A stretch of 35,948 nt of DNA from an uncultured Mycoplasmatota bacterium (GTDB lineage: Bacteria; Bacillota_I; Bacilli_A; RF39; UBA660), in assembly GCA_946486465.1 (NCBI GenBank), contig CAMLTY010000008.1, positions 1 to 35,948 of the forward strand, given 5' to 3'. Below the pieces are notes generated by a model. It made no database searches. It saw only the letters and a program-made list of their open reading frames with translations, and was not told the DNA's origin. This document shows, piece after piece, positions 40-28,240 of the stretch. How positions within the stretch are numbered: the stretch's first letter is position 1; each line of letters starts with the position of its first letter. Made by a program: the position numbers and the translations under genes.

Positions 40-1677
40 CTACGATAATACATATGGACTTGTTGCAGTTCCATCTCCAGACGTAAACCCGTTATCAGTT
101 GTCACATTGATAACTGGTCTTAATAGAGAAACATAATCATCAATTATAGAAGAGCTTGATAATCCGCGGCTTTGACTATAAAGAAAGCCAGTCTCATCTA
201 ATAACCATAATGGAGACATAGTATAAAAGCCATAATCAATATTAAAGTTTCCTTTATATGTCAAATAACTATTACCTACTACTCCCATACTTTCTCCTGC
301 TAAAACTAACTCATCTGCTGTTATTAAACCTGCTTTTAATCTATATGAACCACCATAACTTTCACTTGTAGTAGGACATTTTAAAGTCGGTGTTACATTC
401 TCTTGCATTTCTAATCCCATTAACTTTCCATAAGCTGAACTTAATCTATCAAAACTTGCAAATACACTTACTCCTAGCATCGTTTCTTCTCTATAACCAC
501 TACTATCACTACAGAATCTTCCACTACTTACTTTACTATCATAACTACTGCTTCCTAAGGTATTACTATACCATGTATCTACTTCTTTCTTTATAAATGA
601 ATCTGTTCCATTATCGTAGGTATATCCTGTATATTTAGGATCATTACCCTCTAAATTATAAGGAGTTAGCCCTATTGCAGAAGATGATACTAAATCAGCA
701 TTTGTTGGATTAGTACTTACACCATTATAGATTAGTCTTAAACTTCCATCTCCATTTACTCGCACTATCTTCCAGTACATCTTATCACCTTGGGATGCTA
801 ATAGCACTCTATTACTTTCACTACAACTACTATTATATTCTTGGCAAGACGCTAAACTCTGAAAAAATCTACTACCATAATTATACACATAATAATCCTC
901 TGTATATTCTCCAAATTGAACATTATTATTATCTACTGCTCCTCTAAAGTAGTAACTTGTACCATCTTCATCTTCCATACTATATAAGCCATTTGTTACT
1001 TGGCTTTCATCAGTTTCATATTGAGGTTGTCCATCATCAGATGCCCCAGATAAGTACATACCATTACTTGCATAATTAAACATATCATCTAAACTTGTTT
1101 CTATTTCATTATCGGCAAGTACTTTTTTAGCTCCTTCATCTAACTCTATTTCGTTAAATAAATGTCCATTACTAGGTAACGACAAATCATTATAATCAAG
1201 ACCTACTCCTGCTCCTAGTGCAATTGTTATTTCACTATCGGAACTATTCTTAACTTGAATTCTATATATACTACTAGAACCACTAGAACCACTTGTTTCT
1301 AAATTAATTCCTTTTTCATCTGGAGGAGTACTAACACCTTTAACAGGAACATATCCAACTGTTACTCCTTCCTGTAGATCTCCTATATAATAAAAATTAA
1401 ATCTTGCCATTCTATTATTAGGATTACTTAATGTTACTATAAATTCCTTAGTTGTATTTTTAGGGACTGTTAAAATATTTCCTTCACTACCATCTACAGA
1501 TAATTTATAAGTTAAGTTACCTGTTACAATACTAATAGCATTATTTTTTTCCTTACTTACCGTAAATATAGCATAAGAAAAGAAACCTCCTAATAGTAAT
1601 AGACATATAATACTTACACCTAAGATATAAAACTTAGATATATCTGCTTTCATAAACTCTTTTATCTTATATTTCAT
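40..1677 (-). CDS. Large membrane-anchored surface protein (paralog of the gene at 26567-28240)
   Basis: 545 residues. Residues about 17-40 form one hydrophobic segment ending in SYAIFTVS, like the SipW-dependent signal/anchor of TasA/CalY-type exported proteins, so the rest is probably extracellular. Residues about 45-180 look like a beta-rich domain. From about residue 230 the protein closely matches the second surface protein in this window: shared blocks include GLYSMEDEDGTSYYFRG, NNNVQFGEYT, MYWKIVRVNGDGSLRLIYNG and KKEVDTWY. It ends with an RPVINVT block typical of C-type-lectin/FGE-like folds, after a segment that differs completely from the paralog. The ATG follows an AAGGTGA SD at 5-nt spacing. 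A terminator separates it from trpS upstream. Exact function unknown; adhesion or envelope display is inference. Confidence 0.8.
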   Translation of the reverse strand: MKYKIKEFMKADISKFYILGVSIICLLLLGGFFSYAIFTVSKEKNNAISIVTGNLTYKLSVDGSEGNILTVPKNTTKEFIVTLSNPNNRMARFNFYYIGDLQEGVTVGYVPVKGVSTPPDEKGINLETSGSSGSSSIYRIQVKNSSDSEITIALGAGVGLDYNDLSLPSNGHLFNEIELDEGAKKVLADNEIETSLDDMFNYASNGMYLSGASDDGQPQYETDESQVTNGLYSMEDEDGTSYYFRGAVDNNNVQFGEYTEDYYVYNYGSRFFQSLASCQEYNSSCSESNRVLLASQGDKMYWKIVRVNGDGSLRLIYNGVSTNPTNADLVSSSAIGLTPYNLEGNDPKYTGYTYDNGTDSFIKKEVDTWYSNTLGSSSYDSKVSSGRFCSDSSGYREETMLGVSVFASFDRLSSAYGKLMGLEMQENVTPTLKCPTTSESYGGSYRLKAGLITADELVLAGESMGVVGNSYLTYKGNFNIDYGFYTMSPLWLLDETGFLYSQSRGLSSSSIIDDYVSLLRPVINVTTDNGFTSGDGTATSPYVLS

Positions 1678-3582: not shown

Positions 3583-3945
3583 ATGCAATATTTAAAAAAA
3601 CTAGGTAAATTTATTTTATTTATTCTTATTAGTATAATATTATTAGGATTAATGTTAAATGCTCTATACTATTTTGATATTATAAGTAATAATGTTTATA
3701 ATATTATGAAAATGGTCATTATTCTAGTTATTCTTTTTATTAATTCTTTATTATTAGGAAAAAACTCTTCTAAATACGGAATAGTTGAAGGCTTAAAATT
3801 GGGAGCAATATTTCTCCTTTTCATGGTCATAATAAAATTAATAATAAAGAGTCCTTTTGATATAAGAACCTTTATTTATAGTATCATAATTCTTTTAACG
3901 ACTAGTATTGGAGCAGTCATTGGCATTAACAAAAAAACAAAATAA
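3583..3945 (+). CDS. Small four-helix membrane protein, TIGR04086/YrzE-like
   Basis: About 120 residues with four hydrophobic helices (about 7-27, 37-57, 68-88, 95-112 counted from the chosen start) and a lysine-rich C-terminus. The pattern with FDIIS between helices 1 and 2, then LLLGKNSSKYGIVEGLKLG, matches Firmicute TIGR04086-type membrane proteins, whose function is unknown. An in-frame GTG exists at 3574, but the ATG at 3583 has an AGGTGA SD at good spacing and is preferred. Its stop abuts the trmK stop with no spacer (convergent genes). Confidence 0.65.
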   Translation: MQYLKKLGKFILFILISIILLGLMLNALYYFDIISNNVYNIMKMVIILVILFINSLLLGKNSSKYGIVEGLKLGAIFLLFMVIIKLIIKSPFDIRTFIYSIIILLTTSIGAVIGINKKTK

Positions 3946-4623
3946 TTATTTATTTAAATCCTTTAAAGTTTGCAATAGGTATTTTATTTCTTTTTTAGTT
4001 ACTATTATTTTATTTCTAAATGATTTAGGTAAAGCTTTAAGAAGGGCTTGCTTGGTATTTAATATACTTTGATAATACTCTTTAGTAAGACTATCTTTTT
4101 TAGTCATTAAAACAGGTCCTAAAAAAAGTTTTTTATATGAGTAATATTTTCTTCCTTTCTTAAAGACTAATATTTCATAAATTATCTTATTTTCTTTAAC
4201 TAATGTTTCATTATCTATATGATATCCTAATTTTATTAGTTTTCTTTTAACAGCAAGAGAATAGTTATTAGGAGATAATATTAAAGTATTAATATTTTTT
4301 AAATAACTTCTATTATCATCAAGTATTTTATTGATATTAAGTCCCCCCATACCTGATATAGTAACTGTATCTATTCCTTCAATATAAGAATCTAATCCTT
4401 CGGCTTTTACTAACTTTACTTTATCAGATACTTTATAGAACTTAACATTTTCCAAGGCTTTCTTTAAAGGACCACTTTTATTATCACTAGCGACTGCTTT
4501 ACTAAGCCCTCTTTCTTTTATTAAATAAATGGACAAAAGAGCGTGATCACATCCAATATCTAGAGGATATGAAGAAAGAGGAACTAAATCCCCTATAGTT
4601 TTTAATCTGTTATTTATTTTCAT
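3946..4623 (-). CDS. trmK: tRNA (adenine-22-N1)-methyltransferase
   Basis: SAM-dependent methyltransferase modifying A22 in the D-arm of some tRNAs (B. subtilis YqfN family). The SAM-binding motif LDIGCDHALL is at about residue 21, the acidic residue ending the second strand is in AVASDN, and the family-typical SGMGG is at about residue 90. The length (225) fits. Its ATG directly abuts the rpoD stop codon, so translation is probably coupled in the dnaG-rpoD-trmK operon, the same order as in many Bacillota. Confidence 0.92.
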   Translation of the reverse strand: MKINNRLKTIGDLVPLSSYPLDIGCDHALLSIYLIKERGLSKAVASDNKSGPLKKALENVKFYKVSDKVKLVKAEGLDSYIEGIDTVTISGMGGLNINKILDDNRSYLKNINTLILSPNNYSLAVKRKLIKLGYHIDNETLVKENKIIYEILVFKKGRKYYSYKKLFLGPVLMTKKDSLTKEYYQSILNTKQALLKALPKSFRNKIIVTKKEIKYLLQTLKDLNK

Positions 4624-14210: not shown

Positions 14211-14996
14211 ATGAATATAAGTTTTAGAGAAGCTTGTTTTATTAAGAAGCTCCCTAATATGGAAGGTTCATTTGGGTATCTTGCCACTCATAAGACACTT
14301 CCTAATGGGACAGTTATTAAAGTAATAAATAATTTAACAAAAGAAAAAGAATCTACTATAAGAGAATTAATTGGTGAGAAGAAAATTCAAGGTAGTGGAT
14401 ATCCTATTGATGAATATAAAGTTGATAATAAATTACAAGGTTTTATCATGCCTTACTATCCTCATTCTCATACCTTTGATTATATTGTTAATAGAGATAT
14501 GTTTACACATATGGAAAGATTAAAAGCTTCAATTGATTGTACTAGACAGTTAAAAGAGTTACATAATAAAGGTTTCTTTTTAAATGATATCGCTTTATCT
14601 AATAGTTTGATTGATAAAGATGGAGGCCACTTAATAGACTTTGATTCTGCTACTAAAAGAAGTCCTAAGAAAACAGAAAGTCATTATGAATTAACCTTAA
14701 ATGGTAAAATTCTAAGACCAAGTTATAATACTGATAAATTAAAACAAGCTTTAACAAATCTCTCAATCATTTATGGAATTAACTTTGAAGAAGTAATAAA
14801 AGATAGAACTACTGATGTTAATGGTCTATTTAGCCTATTTAAAGATAACAAAGAAATTTTTAATCTTTTATATAGTTACCTTAGTTGTGATAGTTCTAAA
14901 CCTTATTTTGATGTATTAATAGATACTTTAGAAGATGAAGAAAAAGTTATGTTTGAAAGTGCTAAGATATATAGAAAAACTAATAGCCTAGTTTAA
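14211..14996 (+). CDS. Protein kinase-like fold protein
   Basis: About 261 residues. Kinase-like landmarks in order: an N-lobe with GTVIKVI (possible ATP-anchoring Lys), a possible helix C (ESTIRELIGEKK), a hinge region QGFIMPYY, a catalytic-loop-like LHNKGFFLNDIALSN with Asp and, five residues on, Asn, and LIDFDSA in the place of DFG. The usual Lys at +2 of the catalytic Asp is replaced by Ala, and Gly of DFG by Asp, so activity is uncertain. The ATG at 14211 has an AAAGGGG SD; an ATG at 14172 has none. It is divergent from hisS and a single gene. It could act on proteins or small molecules; nothing nearby suggests a substrate. Confidence 0.6.
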   Translation: MNISFREACFIKKLPNMEGSFGYLATHKTLPNGTVIKVINNLTKEKESTIRELIGEKKIQGSGYPIDEYKVDNKLQGFIMPYYPHSHTFDYIVNRDMFTHMERLKASIDCTRQLKELHNKGFFLNDIALSNSLIDKDGGHLIDFDSATKRSPKKTESHYELTLNGKILRPSYNTDKLKQALTNLSIIYGINFEEVIKDRTTDVNGLFSLFKDNKEIFNLLYSYLSCDSSKPYFDVLIDTLEDEEKVMFESAKIYRKTNSLV

Positions 14997-15277: not shown

Positions 15278-15430
15278 ACCTTGTCGTTACCTCCAAGGAT
15301 TCCTACTTCATAGATAGAGTAACCTCTATTCTCCATAGGCTTAAATTCCGATAGTCGCTACCGTACTCAATAATCTATTTATCTTTGTTCATTTTTTATT
15401 ATATCAAACATTACTTAACTTTGGTAGTGT
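15278..15430 (-). ncRNA. Probable omega RNA (reRNA) overlapping the 3' end of tnpB
   Basis: Family knowledge places the TnpB guide scaffold at the end of tnpB and the right end of the element. Here this stretch holds pairing segments (GGTAG/CTATC, 15350-15362 region; CCTTG/CAAGG, about 15283-15302) and GTAGGAATCC shortly before the end, as in other Firmicute elements. The guide would begin just after CAAGG and read into the transporter remnant (about 15265-15280). Boundaries are approximate. Confidence 0.5.
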
Positions 15431-16554
15431 AACTTCAATCCTTCAAACATTATGTTTAAACTTGCATTTATATCTCTATCATTATGTGAGCCACATTTTG
15501 GGCAATCATATTCTCTTATACTCAAATCTTTTAACTTACTATTCTTATATCCACAATGACTACATATTTGACTACTTGGATAATAGGTATTTATTTTATA
15601 ATAAATCTTTCCTTTTATCTTACATTTCCATTCTATTAGAGAACGTAATGTACTAACAGCAGCATCTGATAGACTTTTATTAAATGCTTTTCTCTTATCT
15701 TTAAACATATCTTTTACTAATAAACTCTCTGTTACTATAATATCATGGTCATTCACTATCTCCTTTGCAATGTCATTTAAATAATGTTTTCTATAATTTT
15801 TAATCTTAGCATGTAACCTTGCTATTTTCTCTTTTGTCTTTAAATAATTCTTACTTCCTTTAACTTGTCTTGATAACTTTCTTTGTAATCTTTGTAATCT
15901 CTTTTCATACTTCATTAATACTTTCTCATTACTATATTTAATTCCATCACTTGTTACTACTAAATCTTTTATACCTAAGTCTATTCCTACTATACTAGTA
16001 GGTGTTATTACTTTTTCTACTAACAAATCTTCTTCTACTAATACACTTACATAATACTTATTAGTTGTATCTTTTGATATAGTCGCATTTACTATTTTTC
16101 CTTCTATTATGTCTTTATTTCTATATCCTCTTATTTTAACTCTACCTAGTTTAGGTAATTTTATATTTCTAGTTAGTAAATCTACTTCTATATTACTATA
16201 CTCTTTACCTTTATAAGTACTTCTTATACAACTAGTTCTATAAGATTGTCTACTAAACTTACTCTTAAACCTTGGGATTTCACTTCTCTTAGCAAAGAAG
16301 TTATTAAAACCATCTTCTAAATCAAATATAGAACATCTTAAGGCACATGAATCTACTTCTTTAAGGTATTCATGATTGTTTTCTAATTCTTTTAAATCTT
16401 TACACAAATCAAATGATTTCTTTACTCCATTTTCTTTTTGATAATTTAGATAGTAGTTATAAACAAATCTACTACATCCAAAAGTTTTATGTATTAATAT
16501 TCTTTGTTCTTCTGTTGGATATAACCTAAATTTATATGCTTTATATATTTTCAT
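15415..16554 (-). CDS. tnpB: TnpB RNA-guided endonuclease (IS200/IS605 family)
   Basis: 379 residues, standard TnpB length. N-terminal domain (YKFRLYPTEEQ...), RuvC-I with GIDLGIKDLVV (catalytic Asp), RuvC-II with IVTESLLVKDMF (catalytic Glu), zinc ribbon CSHCGYKN...CPKCG, and RuvC-III DRDINASLN (catalytic Asp). All catalytic and zinc residues are present, so the nuclease looks intact. TnpB is an omega-RNA-guided DNA nuclease that helps the element persist. ATG at 16554 has a GGGAGG SD and a consensus promoter. The element splits a transporter gene. Confidence 0.95.
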   Translation of the reverse strand: MKIYKAYKFRLYPTEEQRILIHKTFGCSRFVYNYYLNYQKENGVKKSFDLCKDLKELENNHEYLKEVDSCALRCSIFDLEDGFNNFFAKRSEIPRFKSKFSRQSYRTSCIRSTYKGKEYSNIEVDLLTRNIKLPKLGRVKIRGYRNKDIIEGKIVNATISKDTTNKYYVSVLVEEDLLVEKVITPTSIVGIDLGIKDLVVTSDGIKYSNEKVLMKYEKRLQRLQRKLSRQVKGSKNYLKTKEKIARLHAKIKNYRKHYLNDIAKEIVNDHDIIVTESLLVKDMFKDKRKAFNKSLSDAAVSTLRSLIEWKCKIKGKIYYKINTYYPSSQICSHCGYKNSKLKDLSIREYDCPKCGSHNDRDINASLNIMFEGLKLHYQS

Positions 16555-16580
16555 ACAACGAACCTCCCTTTAGTAACTAA

Positions 16581-16610
16581 AGTGTACCGTATAGAAAATA
16601 TGTTTGTCAA
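16581..16610 (-). promoter_or_regulatory. tnpB promoter
   Basis: Minus strand -35 TTGACA (16605-16610), 18-nt spacer, -10 TACACT (16581-16586), followed by a small CTTTAG/CTAAAG inverted repeat next to the SD. It closely resembles the promoter before cptN at 8043-8072. Confidence 0.75.
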
Positions 16611-17306
16611 TACATTTTTTCGATTTTTAAGTATAACTTTCCTATTATATAAATAAAGCGGAAAGAATGCCGTCATTACTGTTGATGCTTCTCTTAATGC
16701 TAAATGAAATAGTGTTGTTTTAGGAACTATTTTAAAATATTTAATAAGAGAATCCTTAAGTTTTGTCTTCCTTTTTTCATCCATAAGAAAAAAACTAATT
16801 AATGAGATTAACATCAAAATACTTGATGCAATAACTAAAGGAACAATACTAAAATTATCTAATATAAAAGCAGATATTATCCCTGCCGTTATTTCAGAAA
16901 TTTGTGATATTATTCCTACTTTACGACCAAGCTTTTTATCGTTTAGAGTAATAAATTCCAAATTATGTCTTACATTCCAATATATATTAGAATAAAGAGC
17001 AAAGAAAAATACATTAACTATTAAACTACCTACCCCCTCTACAAAAAAGATTAAGTCTACATAAGTACAAATAAAGAAAAAATTAGAGATAAGCATTAGA
17101 GTCTTATTACTAATTTATAATTATACCTAAATACAGGTGGTTGAAAAATAATATACCCAAGATATGCTATTAATTGCCATATAGCAACTTCTAAAACAGA
17201 AAAGCCTTGTTTATAAAGATATATACAATTAAATGTTCCCAAAAGATTTTTAGCAAGCGAAGATAACAATAAGAAAACTTTAGTATATGTAATTGTACTA
17301 TTCATT

Positions 17307-19217
17307 TTATTTATCCTCGCCATTAAATATAATATTATTTTTCTTTATATTCTGTAAAATATTACTGATATTTATTAAATTATTATTTTCTAATAAAATA
17401 TTTACTTCTTTACTTTTATTTGATAAAGGATCTAAGAATTCATAGTTATAATTAGTAACACCATCTTCTATAAGATTATCATTATTTAATATTTGAAAGA
17501 CAATTTCTTTAATAGTTATATTATTTTTTTCTAATAATGGACTTAACAAGACTACAATCTTACTATTAATGTTGTTATATTTTTCATAAATATATCTTTT
17601 TATTATATTTTCTAATAGTAGTTTTAAATATTCATCTTTATTAACACTATTAACTAATTCTCTAGCTTTATATTTAGATGTAAACTTCAAAGTATTACCA
17701 GTCTTCAAATAATCTAAGATAGCATAAATACCTTGTCCCTTCTTATAGACTTTATCGCAAATTACCACCGCTGTATTTATATCTAAGACTGTATTAATAT
17801 CTTTATATATAGAATTATCTTCTCTAGTTATAGTTACATTAATTTTATTACTACTAGCTAAAAGCTCTAATTCTTTAACTCTATTATTTAAGTATTCATT
17901 AATCTTTTCATAATTTGTAATTATATTACCAGTAGTTTCTATATTATTAGAAACAGTATCAGTAGTATCAACTAATGGCATTTCATTACCCACTTGATAG
18001 TTAGTATTCAACAAATCATTTAATATTTTTGAATCATACATTGTTTTTAAAATACTTTTAGTATCTATAATACTTTTTTCTTTAGGATTTAAAAAGATAG
18101 ATATAATGATTCGTTTAATCTCTTTACTAATACTATTTGTATCATTTTCATATTGTAAAAAATATTCTTCTTTCGGAACATCATTATATGTAATATTTGG
18201 ATACTTATCACATGGTAAATGATTTACTAATAAAGCGATTGAATCTATAAAATCAAGTTGCATTTTAATGTTTTCTTCAAGATAAGTTAATCTTTTTTTA
18301 TAATTTACTATTAACTCATCTATTTCTTTAGTCATTTTTGTTTTATAACTCATCTCAATATAGCGCATAAACTCATTTAAATCATAATAAATACTAGCAT
18401 TTCTTATAATGATTTCACAAGTATTAATTATATTATCTTTAGTTAACACTAAATTAGGTAAAAATGTAAAACTTTGATCTATAATTTTCACCTCAGATTC
18501 CTTTTTTACTATAGCATAATATTTACTATTATCTTCAAGTGTATATAAGGCATATATATAATTACCTTTATTTACAAAGGATGAAGCGACTACTTGATCA
18601 TTTATTTTAGCAAATAGATTAAAAATTCTATCACTAAAGGATCCCTCTTTATTGTCAGTAGCATCCATATTTAATAATAAAGTATTGGTTTCATTAATAA
18701 ATTGTTGCAATTTAGAAATAGCTGTTACATCAGTTATATTATTATAAATTTTATTTAATGAATCAATTATTTCATCAGAAACATTTAAACAATTTATCTT
18801 TACAATATTTTCATTAGCTTTAGCAATTAAACTATTATACTCTATAAATATATTATTATCTATTAAATTGTCCTTAGCTTTACTTATAAGTAAATTATAA
18901 TCTTTTTCCATCTCTTCATATAACTGATTAAGTAAAGTGATTTTTTTTATGGGATCAATTTCTTTATCTAAATCTTTTTGTTTTGTTGTATAAAGATTCC
19001 GCTTTATAATAAAATTATTTAATTCATATTTATTAATAATATCTTGTATTCTAACTAAAAGTTGATTATAATGCCCTAATAATTGATTGATTATTGTCTC
19101 CTTAGAGGCAATCTCTTCTTTTATTAAAGTATCATTAGTATTATTAATAAACTTTTTCAAATCATCAATGTTGTTATCTATTGGTTTCAATAATTCAATT
19201 TTTTTACTACTACCCAT
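17307..19217 (-). CDS. Large coiled-coil-rich protein of unknown function
   Basis: 636 residues, strongly Asn/Ile/Lys-rich, with no signal peptide or membrane helix. Long stretches are predicted helical, with heptad-like patterns (about 15-180 and 295-330). A central part (about 200-250: NKGNYIYALYTLEDNSKYYAIVK) looks like a small beta domain, and the last 200 residues (DINTAVVICDKVYKKGQGIYAIL and on) are mixed. ATG with a GGGTGAT SD; its stop lies 1 bp before the transporter pseudogene start. A terminator precedes it. Family not recognised; composition is more extreme than in the housekeeping genes. Confidence 0.75.
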   Translation of the reverse strand: MGSSKKIELLKPIDNNIDDLKKFINNTNDTLIKEEIASKETIINQLLGHYNQLLVRIQDIINKYELNNFIIKRNLYTTKQKDLDKEIDPIKKITLLNQLYEEMEKDYNLLISKAKDNLIDNNIFIEYNSLIAKANENIVKINCLNVSDEIIDSLNKIYNNITDVTAISKLQQFINETNTLLLNMDATDNKEGSFSDRIFNLFAKINDQVVASSFVNKGNYIYALYTLEDNSKYYAIVKKESEVKIIDQSFTFLPNLVLTKDNIINTCEIIIRNASIYYDLNEFMRYIEMSYKTKMTKEIDELIVNYKKRLTYLEENIKMQLDFIDSIALLVNHLPCDKYPNITYNDVPKEEYFLQYENDTNSISKEIKRIIISIFLNPKEKSIIDTKSILKTMYDSKILNDLLNTNYQVGNEMPLVDTTDTVSNNIETTGNIITNYEKINEYLNNRVKELELLASSNKINVTITREDNSIYKDINTVLDINTAVVICDKVYKKGQGIYAILDYLKTGNTLKFTSKYKARELVNSVNKDEYLKLLLENIIKRYIYEKYNNINSKIVVLLSPLLEKNNITIKEIVFQILNNDNLIEDGVTNYNYEFLDPLSNKSKEVNILLENNNLINISNILQNIKKNNIIFNGEDK

Positions 19218-23204: not shown

Positions 23205-23262
23205 CTTTTTATGATTATAGGTAAGGCTTTGGCTCTGTATCCTCCGCCTTTTCCCCAACCCT

Positions 23263-23299
23263 ACACCGTACGGGATTATTTCTAATCATACGGCGTGCC
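23263..23299 (-). ncRNA. Group II intron domain V
   Basis: Minus strand hairpin: ACGCCGTA pairs with TACGGTGT, an internal bulge (CCCG side) follows, then ATTA-GAAA-TAAT with a GNRA tetraloop. The catalytic triad position reads CGC in place of the more common AGC, a known variant. The intact fold supports splicing ability. Confidence 0.8.
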
Positions 23300-23350
23300 A
23301 TCAAAGTTAGTCTTTTACTTTTACTCTGTTTATATTATAGAGTTCCAAAA

Positions 23351-25105
23351 CTAAATTGTTAGCAAGTTGTTCTCCTTTCTTATAATATTTATTTCCTCTA
23401 GTTGTTTAGAAGTCAACCCCTTTTTGAGTCTTATCATCTCTATCAAGTCATCAACTTCTTTCTTTTCTATTAGTTCTTTTACTTTCTTTTCTACTAAAAT
23501 TATATTATCATATTTATTGTTGAAAGGAGTATTTTCCCTTTTAACTATTTTTAAATTTGATATATCTAGTATCATTTTATTAGTAAAAGCATATTTACCT
23601 AATTGTCCACAGAATTTTGATATTACATTATCATTAAATTCTACTGTCTTATTTAGGTAAGGATTTTTGAGTATTACCTCTGTCATATAAAGTTTTTTAA
23701 TCTTTAGTTCTTTATAGAACTTATCTCTTGATTTACTATCATAGTAATCAATTTTATCTCCTTTATATTTCGGCTCTTGATATTTTACTTTTTCTATCAA
23801 GGCTAGAGGTTTTCCTCTTATATATGGTATCTTTTTGCCATATGTTTTTACTACAAAGTTATCTTCATCGATATCTTCGTTGAAAGTAAGAACTCCTAAG
23901 AAATTCTTATTTATGTATGCATTTATTATAATCCCAAGTTTATGCAAGTTAGATAATATATTAGTGGCTTTAGAGTAATAACCATGTGTTCCTATCACCA
24001 TACTATTATATTTATCTATTTCTTCCTTGCATTTTTTCTTATTCCATTTACTTTTCTTAACTATTCGTATTTGCTTTTTAAGTTTATCAGTTGTATTCTT
24101 AATAGCCTTATCAGTCATATTACTAACTACTTTTAACTTACCCTTATGTTTCTTTAGTTTAAATCTAAGACCTAGAAAATAGGAGTTTGTTTTCTTTAGA
24201 TTTACTATTTTGGTTTTCTCTTCACTCACTTCAAGTTTTAGCCTTTTCTTTAGCCATATTGTTGTTTTATCTAACATATCACTTGCAATCTGATATGTAG
24301 GACACAATATTTTAAAGTCATCGGCATATCTCACACATCGAATACCTTTATTCTTTTTACTATCTAACCACCAATCTAGTTCATTTAACACTACATTTGC
24401 AAGTAGTGGTGATAGTATTCCTCCTTGTGGAGTCCCCTTATTAGGTATTCCTACACCTTTAACTTCTGCTTTTAGCATCTTTGAAATGATTGACAGTAGA
24501 TTCTTATCTCGTATTCCTAGTTGCCATAACTGTTTTAAGAGTTTACCATGGTCTATATTATCAAAGAATCCTTTGATATCTATATCTACCACATAGTAAA
24601 GCTTTTCTTTTATGATGTAATTAGTCATTTGACTTATTGCCCTAGAACAACTTCTTCCTTCTATAAAGCCATTACTATTATTATGAAATTTAGGAATTAG
24701 TATTGGGTTTAGTACTTGATATATCGCTTGTTCAACAATTTTATCTATTGGTTCTTTTATTCCTAGATATCTAATTTTTCCATTAGACTTTGGAATACCA
24801 ACTCTTTTAATCATTGACGGTTTATAATTATCTAGTTGTTCCTTTATCTTCTTCAAGTACTTATAGAGTTTCATTTTACTTATAAAATCCATATTATTAC
24901 CACTTAGTCCTCTAGCTTTACTTCCACCATTATTTTTGATGTTTCTATAGGCTAGCCTAATGTTAGTATCTTCATTTATGTATTTCATTAAATCATGAAA
25001 TACATATTTATTTTTACTTCTTTTATTAAGTACATCAAACTCTTCTTGCATACAATAATATTCGTTATTTCTTAGTTGCACGATTTTAGTTTTCTCTTCT
25101 CCCAT
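23351..25105 (-). CDS. ltrA: Group II intron reverse transcriptase/maturase (LtrA-like)
   Basis: 584 residues. RT blocks: KPSMIKRVGIPKSNGKIRYLGI (blocks 1-2), VVDIDIKGFFDNIDH (block 3, catalytic Asp), GTPQGGILSPLLANVVLNELD (block 4), RYADDFKIL (block 5, YADD), then blocks 6-7 and a maturase X domain (about 330-400). The C-terminal 150-180 residues are Lys-rich and lack the Cys pairs and His of an HNH endonuclease, so target-strand cutting by this domain is not expected. The protein helps its intron splice and move. Catalytic Asp residues are present. Confidence 0.93.
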   Translation of the reverse strand: MGEEKTKIVQLRNNEYYCMQEEFDVLNKRSKNKYVFHDLMKYINEDTNIRLAYRNIKNNGGSKARGLSGNNMDFISKMKLYKYLKKIKEQLDNYKPSMIKRVGIPKSNGKIRYLGIKEPIDKIVEQAIYQVLNPILIPKFHNNSNGFIEGRSCSRAISQMTNYIIKEKLYYVVDIDIKGFFDNIDHGKLLKQLWQLGIRDKNLLSIISKMLKAEVKGVGIPNKGTPQGGILSPLLANVVLNELDWWLDSKKNKGIRCVRYADDFKILCPTYQIASDMLDKTTIWLKKRLKLEVSEEKTKIVNLKKTNSYFLGLRFKLKKHKGKLKVVSNMTDKAIKNTTDKLKKQIRIVKKSKWNKKKCKEEIDKYNSMVIGTHGYYSKATNILSNLHKLGIIINAYINKNFLGVLTFNEDIDEDNFVVKTYGKKIPYIRGKPLALIEKVKYQEPKYKGDKIDYYDSKSRDKFYKELKIKKLYMTEVILKNPYLNKTVEFNDNVISKFCGQLGKYAFTNKMILDISNLKIVKRENTPFNNKYDNIILVEKKVKELIEKKEVDDLIEMIRLKKGLTSKQLEEINIIRKENNLLTI

Positions 25106-25897
25106 AGTCAGTCAGTACAGTTTCCTGCCTTATACTTCTCTTAGTCTATAATAGAACCTATGATTATTATAAACTTTTCTTGTAGAAGATTAACTCTGAC
25201 TAGTGCCTTTCCCTCCACATCTTGTTATCAATGCTTCTAAAGTACTTTTACACCGCTTTCACAAGGATTAAGTTAAGTTATAGTCATTACTTTTCCTTAA
25301 CAATACCGTCATCGCCTAATAGGACTCTTGTATTCCTTGCTTATCAAGTTCCGATAAAACTATCTATCCATATATACTTTTAGGACTTCTCTATAAGCCT
25401 GTAGACTTGATAGTACCTTTAATACTATATGGTATTTCATAGGTGATATTCTTACTTTACCACATCTACAACACCTTTGGTGTTCATGTCATTTCTAACA
25501 TGTTATCTCTAGACCTGTACACTCGAGAATTTGTCGATTAAGACTATCACTAGTTCTTAATATTCTATCCATGAGTATTTTATAGACCACCGACCTATCA
25601 TATACAGATTATACCTCTATAACCATTTCCTTGATTACTCATTAGGGTATACTTCAGTCGACTTCAGCGAGTTCCCATACATACTAATATCTATTACTAT
25701 CATTATGCATGTCGCAGTTCTTATGGAAAGCATTTCGTGGCGTTACCCACTCATTCTACTTTTCGTTTTATCAGTTGCAAGTTGTAAAAAACTTACCTAT
25801 CGCTTTTCACGATTGAACTTGCCACACATCACCACTATTAGTATAACAACTTTTTTTAAAAAAATATATAAAAAGAAAAGACTATAGTGTAAATATT

Positions 25898-25906: not shown

Positions 25907-25925
25907 TAATAAAGTGGTGATTAAA

Positions 25926-26566: not shown

Positions 26567-28240
26567 TTAATCGGCTTGTATCACATATGGATTTTCTGCA
26601 GCTCCATCTCCAGATGTAAACCCGTTTTCAGTGGTCACATTGATAACTGGACGAACGGCGCCGTTGGCACCCACAAAGTTGCCGCCGAGATCCTCACGCT
26701 CATACCACACATTAGCATTACCAATAAGGAAACCGCCCGGCGTCATACTCCAATACTCTATTCCTGATTTTCCTGGGCTTAAGTAACTATCTGTGGTTAC
26801 TCCAATATTCTCTCCTGCAAGTACCAATTCATCTGCTGTTATCAATCCTGCTTTTAATCTATAAGAGCCCCCATATATCTCACTTGTACTTGGACAATTC
26901 AAGACTGGTGCATTAGGTTTTGCATAGTTAGTAGCACTTTGATCTAGTCTATCATAACTCGCAAATACATTAAAGTCCATACCTGAAAAGCCATATTCGC
27001 TTACTGGTTTATATCCACTACTATCACTACAGAATCTGCCTCCTATTACTTTACTATCATAACCACTACTTCCTAATGTGTTTTTATACCATGTATCTAC
27101 TTCTTTCTTTATAAAACTATCTGTTCCATTATCATAGGTATATCCTGTGTATTTTGAATCATTATCCTCTAAATTATATGGTGTTTGTCCTACTACATAA
27201 GAATGTGCTAAATCACTATTATCTGGATTTGCACTTGTTCCATTATATATTAATCTTAAACTTCCATCTCCATTAATTCTTATAATCTTCCAATACATCT
27301 TATCTCCGGCACTAGCAAGCTTTACTTGAGTACAACTACTATTACCTGCTTCAGTACAACTAGATTCACTTTGATAAATAGTGTTATTACCTTGATAAAC
27401 ATAATAATCACTTGTATATTCTCCAAACTGTACATTGTTATTATTTACATTTCCTCTAAAATAGTAACTTGTTCCATCTTCATCTTCAATGCTATATAAT
27501 CCATTTGTTACATACTCTGGATTATTTTGTGGACTAGAACTCATATCTAAATAGTTTCCATTACTTGCATAATTAAACATATTCTCTTTTTCTTCTTGTA
27601 ATTCATTATCTTCTAATATCTCTTGTGTAGTTAGAGGAACATACTTATCTCCTGCTTTTCCATAAACATTTATCTGTACTGTAAAGACTAATCCTCCTCC
27701 ATCTCCCTGGGGATTATAACTCTCATCTACATACATTCTTAATCTATAATTATTAGATTCACTAGAGTTCATACTACTTGTATATAAACTCATCTCATTT
27801 ACTGGTCTTCCTGTATAATCATTAGCACTACTCTCCTCATTATATGTCTCAGGTACCATTAAAGCTTCTTCACTACCATCATCTGTTAATCTAGTTAGAT
27901 ATAACTTTATATATTCTCCACCTATAGTATTACCATCTTCTTTTTTAGCACTTATCTCATAGTTTATATTTACATCTCCTGTTATTTCACTACTTATACT
28001 AAAATCAAAGTACTCTCCAGGATTTAATCTTACCATACCTGTCTTATCTGTTGTTGGTAGGGCCCCATTTAGACTTATTGTATTATCACTCTCTTCATAA
28101 CTCATTGTTATCGCTCCTGTTGTTATACTATTTATACTACCTTCTCTATTATAACTAAAAGCAGCATAACTTACTCCTACTATTGCAATTACCATTACTA
28201 TTAACACCACTATTATTACTATGTTTTCACGTTTTTTCAT
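26567..28240 (-). CDS. Large SipW-type surface protein (paralog of 40-1677), with a GC-rich variable segment
   Basis: 557 residues. N-terminal segment (about 7-30) ends GVSYAAFSYN with SITTGAITMSY after it, the TasA/CalY-like SipW pattern, then a beta domain (about 45-195: LNPGEYFDFSISSEITGDV) and a long region shared with the paralog (about 235-end: GLYSIEDEDGTSYYFRG, FGEYTSDYYVY, MYWKIIRINGDGSLRLIYNG, KKEVDTWY, GRFCSDSSGYK). The final part EYWSMTPGG...GAVRPVINVTTENGF resembles C-type-lectin/FGE-like folds. Codons at 26651-26750 are GC-rich, unlike the rest. AGAGGAG SD. Probably secreted or anchored outside; ligand unknown. Confidence 0.85.
   Translation of the reverse strand: MKKRENIVIIVVLIVMVIAIVGVSYAAFSYNREGSINSITTGAITMSYEESDNTISLNGALPTTDKTGMVRLNPGEYFDFSISSEITGDVNINYEISAKKEDGNTIGGEYIKLYLTRLTDDGSEEALMVPETYNEESSANDYTGRPVNEMSLYTSSMNSSESNNYRLRMYVDESYNPQGDGGGLVFTVQINVYGKAGDKYVPLTTQEILEDNELQEEKENMFNYASNGNYLDMSSSPQNNPEYVTNGLYSIEDEDGTSYYFRGNVNNNNVQFGEYTSDYYVYQGNNTIYQSESSCTEAGNSSCTQVKLASAGDKMYWKIIRINGDGSLRLIYNGTSANPDNSDLAHSYVVGQTPYNLEDNDSKYTGYTYDNGTDSFIKKEVDTWYKNTLGSSGYDSKVIGGRFCSDSSGYKPVSEYGFSGMDFNVFASYDRLDQSATNYAKPNAPVLNCPSTSEIYGGSYRLKAGLITADELVLAGENIGVTTDSYLSPGKSGIEYWSMTPGGFLIGNANVWYEREDLGGNFVGANGAVRPVINVTTENGFTSGDGAAENPYVIQAD

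Follow-up and report, generated by a model that had tools for sequence, protein, structure and literature searches.

Diversity-generating retroelements (DGRs) of the BPP-1 type combine adenine-specific change in a variable region (VR), located near the 3' end of the target gene, with a structured RNA after the template (TR), the protein Avd, and a reverse transcriptase (RT) carrying the motif IGxxxSQ. BPP-1 also needs the region after the VR, where a hairpin or cruciform lies just after the VR (PMC3240598). In cyanobacterial DGRs with remote variable proteins, the VRs belong to a family of paralogs encoded at a distance from the RT (PMC7517822), and multi-TR/multi-VR DGRs have been described (PMC6642488). 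A short protein with the fold of MutS domain I (Pfam PF01624-type), encoded within the cassette, is a named DGR accessory, i.e., MSL (PMC10053308). Metagenome surveys that need a nearby RT miss VRs that lie far from any RT (PMC8144416).

Here we describe a locus in a window of 35,948 bases (the whole stretch of DNA analysed), which is contig C8 of a 1.40 Mb assembly of 109 contigs that is 86.85% complete (genome G000). The host is probably a relative of Candidatus Onthousia, the genus being read from close relatives; a literature search found no DGR reports for relatives of Candidatus Onthousia. We conclude, with a probability of about 0.96, that a GC-rich segment in the window is the VR of a chromosomal, multi-target DGR. 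Taken together with the cassettes of its sister species, this system shares with BPP-1-type DGRs the adenine-specific VR change, the structured RNA after the TR, Avd, the IGxxxSQ motif of the RT and the location of the VR in its target, but it is chromosomal, has several dispersed targets and an extra MSL gene, and has no significant hairpin immediately downstream of the VR. As in the cyanobacterial systems, the VRs are carried by a family of paralogs remote from the RT, although here this family is surface-type and uncharacterised rather than a recognised C-type-lectin family. Like the multi-TR/multi-VR DGRs it has several VRs, with several TR alleles in the genus and three TRs in a row on contig C51, but it differs in organism group and target family, and in having orphan TRs without an RT. 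Its MSL candidate is likewise short, encoded within the cassette and similar in fold to MutS domain I, except that this 111-residue protein scores below the Pfam cut-off.

Results

A GC-Rich Segment in a Surface-Type Protein Gene

The gene at 26567-28240 (minus strand) encodes a surface-type protein of 557 amino acids with an N-terminal hydrophobic segment, which we take, from its open reading frame and related loci, to be the variable protein of the DGR. Related loci number 78 across Candidatus Onthousia and its relatives, and the product reached no Pfam family. A sequence-only reading had marked 26590-26780 as a GC-rich, divergent segment between near-identical flanks in this gene and a paralog at 40-1677 (minus strand). 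The segment is real: 32 of the 50 bases at 26651-26700 are G or C, compared with 27.7% in the window overall, and the richest 50-nucleotide stretches of the window (33/50) overlap this interval. The 3' flanks of the two genes are identical at 61 of 68 positions, and the segments upstream of the flank are unrelated. The VR proper is narrower than first marked, covering 94 nucleotides at 26647-26740 (CCG...CGTCCAG on the coding strand, which is the minus strand), as defined by alignment with three other VRs of the same genome and the TRs of sister species. Codons ending in C or T make up 24 of its 31, versus 48% over the 500 codons that precede it.

The paralog at 40-1677 shares the flank but is not an informative comparator for the VR. 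Its body is AT-rich and lacks GCCGTNCGTCCAG, and it is not a current DGR target in its own genome. This trpS-adjacent gene has a true VR in the sister genome G029; the window copy may once have carried one and lost it, or may be a replacement. The informative comparators are genes with the same type of segment on three other contigs (C9, C22 and C82), which were found, dispersed, by searching the genome with the segment. Across the four aligned VRs the bases TATTGGAGTATGACGCCG ... TTC ... GGT ... GCT ... TGG ... GAG ... GCCGTNCGTCCAG are fixed, and variation falls on codons with a final T or C, as is characteristic of a DGR whose template codons are AAT/AAC. At least two TR alleles seem to underlie the four VRs; such alleles vary at CTC/CTG and GTG/GTC positions.

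The target gene has efp on one side and a gene for a PfkB-type kinase on the other; in the window this interval also holds a group II intron and a small ORF. At the efp-to-kinase locus of G009 and (across two contigs) of G019 there is a gene of the same family with a different segment, so the segment is not invariant between species. Elsewhere in the window, at 15415-17323, is a transposon-type gene (TnpB-like by eye) beside two short frames that resemble fragments of a single disrupted gene for a membrane transporter.

The sequence-only reading had linked the C-terminal end to lectin-like folds. Because an AlphaFold model of the target's C-terminal domain had a pLDDT of 36.5, it was left out of the fold search; a PDB sequence search with the target profile gave no match, and DUF6273 produced one weak match among 30 members of the target family.

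Template, Spacer RNA and Writer Genes in Sister Species

A guessed TR, with A at the variable sites, was searched against 35 genomes of the genus, and in many of them it matched about 250 bp beyond a VR gene. We could read 18 TRs, of which 17 are followed by the same RNA; the other, in G025:C4, has the TR and a few bases of the RNA only. This conserved structured RNA, read in the roughly 190 nucleotides after each TR (L051-L068), has 45 predicted pairs, 7 of them showing compensatory changes. Where the cassette is full, its order in the sisters is VR gene, TR, spacer RNA, a gene for a 111-residue protein, Avd and RT. The RT carries IGNVTSQ (the IGxxxSQ motif of DGRs) and YMDD and matches PHROG 1423. 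Avd matches Pfam bAvd below the cut-off (E = 3e-7) and PHROG Avd with E = 7.5e-10.

The 111-residue protein had no match above cut-off, with weak matches to Pfam MutS_I (MutS domain I) in 8 of 9 members. One of its five structure models was confident (pLDDT 88.8), and a fold search paired it with the N-terminal domains of MutS and MSH3 (best E 1.1e-3 at probability 1.00). By its fold, the protein is predicted to be a MutS-domain-like accessory, i.e., MSL.

Some RT genes of the sisters are interrupted or altered. In G012:C17 (L053) and G009:C20 (L057), the YMDD codons are themselves split by a group II intron that carries an RT of its own, with junctions TATATGGATG|GTGCGAC...CTACTCGAT|ATGGG and exon ends and starts near 14682 and 12770 (L053) and near 3846 and 5752 (L057). 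Splicing at these junctions would recreate an intact YMDD. In G019:C120 and G030:C11, too, the tail of the RT (L211 and L212) is preceded by the 3' end of an intron. Two other species have YMDG in place of YMDD (L217 in G007:C80; L065 in G013:C41), a form in which catalysis would be expected to be impaired. Yet another type of RT, sharing 44-47% identity with the cognate DGR RT, occurs in many sisters (e.g., G001:C1:19925-20869 and G026:C1:49598-50539), and its matched stretch often contains one in-frame stop.

Adenine Specificity of the Variation

Same-genome TR/VR pairs could be compared directly in the sisters. In 26 such pairs, counted without the last 13 nucleotides, 476 of 855 template adenines had changed, versus 113 of 1260 other bases. 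The pooled p value of about 5e-125 treats related sequences as independent, making it strong, not exact. Compared with a sister TR (that of G027 or G001), the window VR is changed at 21 of 34 adenines and 3 of 47 other bases (p = 7e-8). This adenine-specific pattern excludes chance. In cassette-local pairs the non-adenine changes were mostly 0 or 1 (G001, 0/47; G008, 0/49; G021, 0/47; G030, 0/47; G027, 1/47). Many of the pairs with more such changes look like VRs fitting another TR allele, and G019 C1 (27/49), scored without gaps, is probably out of register. In a permissive test, pooling the TR alleles of the sisters left no base of the window genome's VRs unexplained.

These results bear on the two origins that the sequence-only reading had offered for the segment. 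The first, a retroelement-type variable region, is borne out: TR, structured spacer RNA, Avd, MSL and DGR RT adjoin the same VR in sister species, and the change is adenine-specific. The second, gene conversion among silent cassettes or paralogs, is scarcely credible and is not needed. The VR differences lie on template adenines, mostly in the first two positions of AAT/AAC codons, and template positions other than adenine hardly change. A search of the window genome for silent cassettes returned only full-type genes bearing VRs, and no donor cassette was found there. Outside the VR the paralogs have long near-identical blocks in common, and there ordinary conversion is plausible.

Candidate Signals at the End of the VR

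TR and targets have in common the IMH-like (initiation of mutagenic homing) 3' end GCCGTNCGTCCAG. The candidate IMH core, GCCGTTCGTCCAG, lies at 26647-26659 (minus strand), where TR/VR identity stops at the sister TR loci. Past the TR homology, the target-side flank GTTATCAATGTG (26636-26647, minus strand) is invariant, even at synonymous sites: among 44 sequences its codons are GTT (44/44), ATC (43/44), AAT (43/44) and GTG (44/44), the two valine codons each being fixed, to different codons. By contrast, synonymous codons vary in an equally conserved motif upstream. This pattern makes the flank a probable cis-acting target element at the DNA level, comparable in its place to the post-VR region that BPP-1 needs (PMC3240598). 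DNA folding of the flank detected no significant hairpin just after the VR (z = -0.9). The identity of GTCACATTGATAACTGG between the two window genes, pointed out in the sequence-only reading, is due to the codons GTT ATC AAT GTG being fixed directly after the VR.

State of the Writer in the Window Genome

That reading had proposed a genome search for a template and a DGR RT, which succeeded in part. The last 22 nucleotides of a TR (C9:1-22), followed by spacer RNA, lie at the very start of contig C9 (L050, C9:1-230), i.e., at a contig edge; this TR stub ends as GCCGTTCGTCCAG does, save for one polymorphic base. With a template end present here and the segment differing at the efp-to-kinase locus of two sister species, the outcome that the sequence-only reading had named as refuting it, a genome lacking template and cassette with an invariant segment, was not obtained. 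A DGR RT of a second type was found on C51. No complete TR, MSL gene or cognate RT was found in the assembly (86.85% complete).

The four VRs might then be a relic repertoire, frozen when the cognate RT was lost through an IS insertion or a deletion, which is possible although we doubt it. The absence of RT and MSL from the assembly would fit such a loss, as would the orphan TR end on C9, where endonuclease IV follows the spacer RNA rather than MSL, Avd and RT. In several sisters the end of the RT gene overlaps a gene for a Crp-type regulator adjoining nrdD; in the window genome the regulator gene is directly abutted by an IS that has a DDE transposase and runs off the end of the contig. With an IS and a contig end at the place expected for the RT, the writer could be disrupted, absent from the genome, or merely missing from the assembly. 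However, the assembly lacks 13% of the genome, and its contigs are interrupted at the TR and within the IS, both places where repeats prevent assembly. Moreover, the sister G025 holds an orphan TR besides a full cassette, and the VRs depart from the closest sister TRs at no more than three non-adenine sites, each of them accounted for by a known TR allele, which argues that writing was recent. We infer that the writer has recently been active in the window species.

Orphan TRs with no RT downstream were seen at L062 (G025:C4), L064 (G019:C1) and L050 (G000:C9:1-230). Those in G025 and G019 adjoin a VR gene, TR copies having spread apart from the RT.

The second DGR (G000:C51, L016 3289-4603) is of another type and has an RT, Avd, three tandem TRs and its own target gene. 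RT (motifs IGNYTSQ and FMDD) and Avd are intact, Avd scoring above the Pfam and NCBIfam cut-offs, and the target shows weak FGE-sulfatase similarity. TR1 and the local VR differ at 15 of 32 adenines and 1 of 81 other sites; we found no further targets of this type in the assembly. The C51 TRs were rejected as template of the window VR, since their sequence differs and TR1 matches its own local target only. As the sole DGR writer seen in the genome, the C51 RT and Avd might instead write the window-type VRs in trans from an orphan TR. This is improbable, because the RT is 31-43% identical to the cognate type, and neither the C51 TRs nor what follows them has the sequence of the cognate TR or its spacer RNA.

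The third C51 TR (3965-4075) is changed relative to TR1 at 11 of 32 adenines and 8 of 81 other sites. A short hairpin, TAGCCC-GTAA-GGGCTA, lies just after the VR of the C51 target, in the position of the BPP-1 hairpin, and a long perfect inverted repeat, CACGGACCTTATC/GATAAGGTCCGTG, lies downstream of this target gene (L016, about 4285-4500).

The RT gene within the window (23351-25105) was also considered as the writer and rejected. It belongs to a group II intron at 23211-25779 (minus strand), between the kinase gene and the ORF at 25914, with its own ribozyme parts (Rfam group II matches at 23211-23298 and 25579-25779). The RT has the motif QGGILSP and scores 293.8 bits against TIGR04416 (cut-off 300).

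Mobile elements might also gate hypermutation across the genus, with the IS at the cassette of the window species and the group II introns in the YMDD codons of the sisters' RTs making targets alternate between writable and frozen states by splicing or excision. We regard this as unlikely.

Discussion

For the DGR reading of the window VR, we propose the following mechanism. A TR rich in AAT/AAC codons would be made as RNA together with the structured spacer. A dedicated RT with Avd, and probably MSL, would copy this RNA, miscopying its adenines. By a homing mechanism, the cDNA would then replace the VR in dispersed targets that share the 3' end GCCGTNCGTCCAG and the flank GTTATCAATGTG, so that some 15 to 20 residues of the target's C-terminal domain would be randomised. 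The target protein would presumably be located at the surface and have a role in binding.

The kind of DGR is known already, and what is new is its member in relatives of Candidatus Onthousia. Its remote VRs are of the kind that surveys needing a nearby RT miss, and its VR, TR and IMH are clean enough for the varied residues to be read species by species. It exemplifies hypermutation, at several target genes, of a family of surface-type proteins across a gut lineage that is uncultured and has small genomes.
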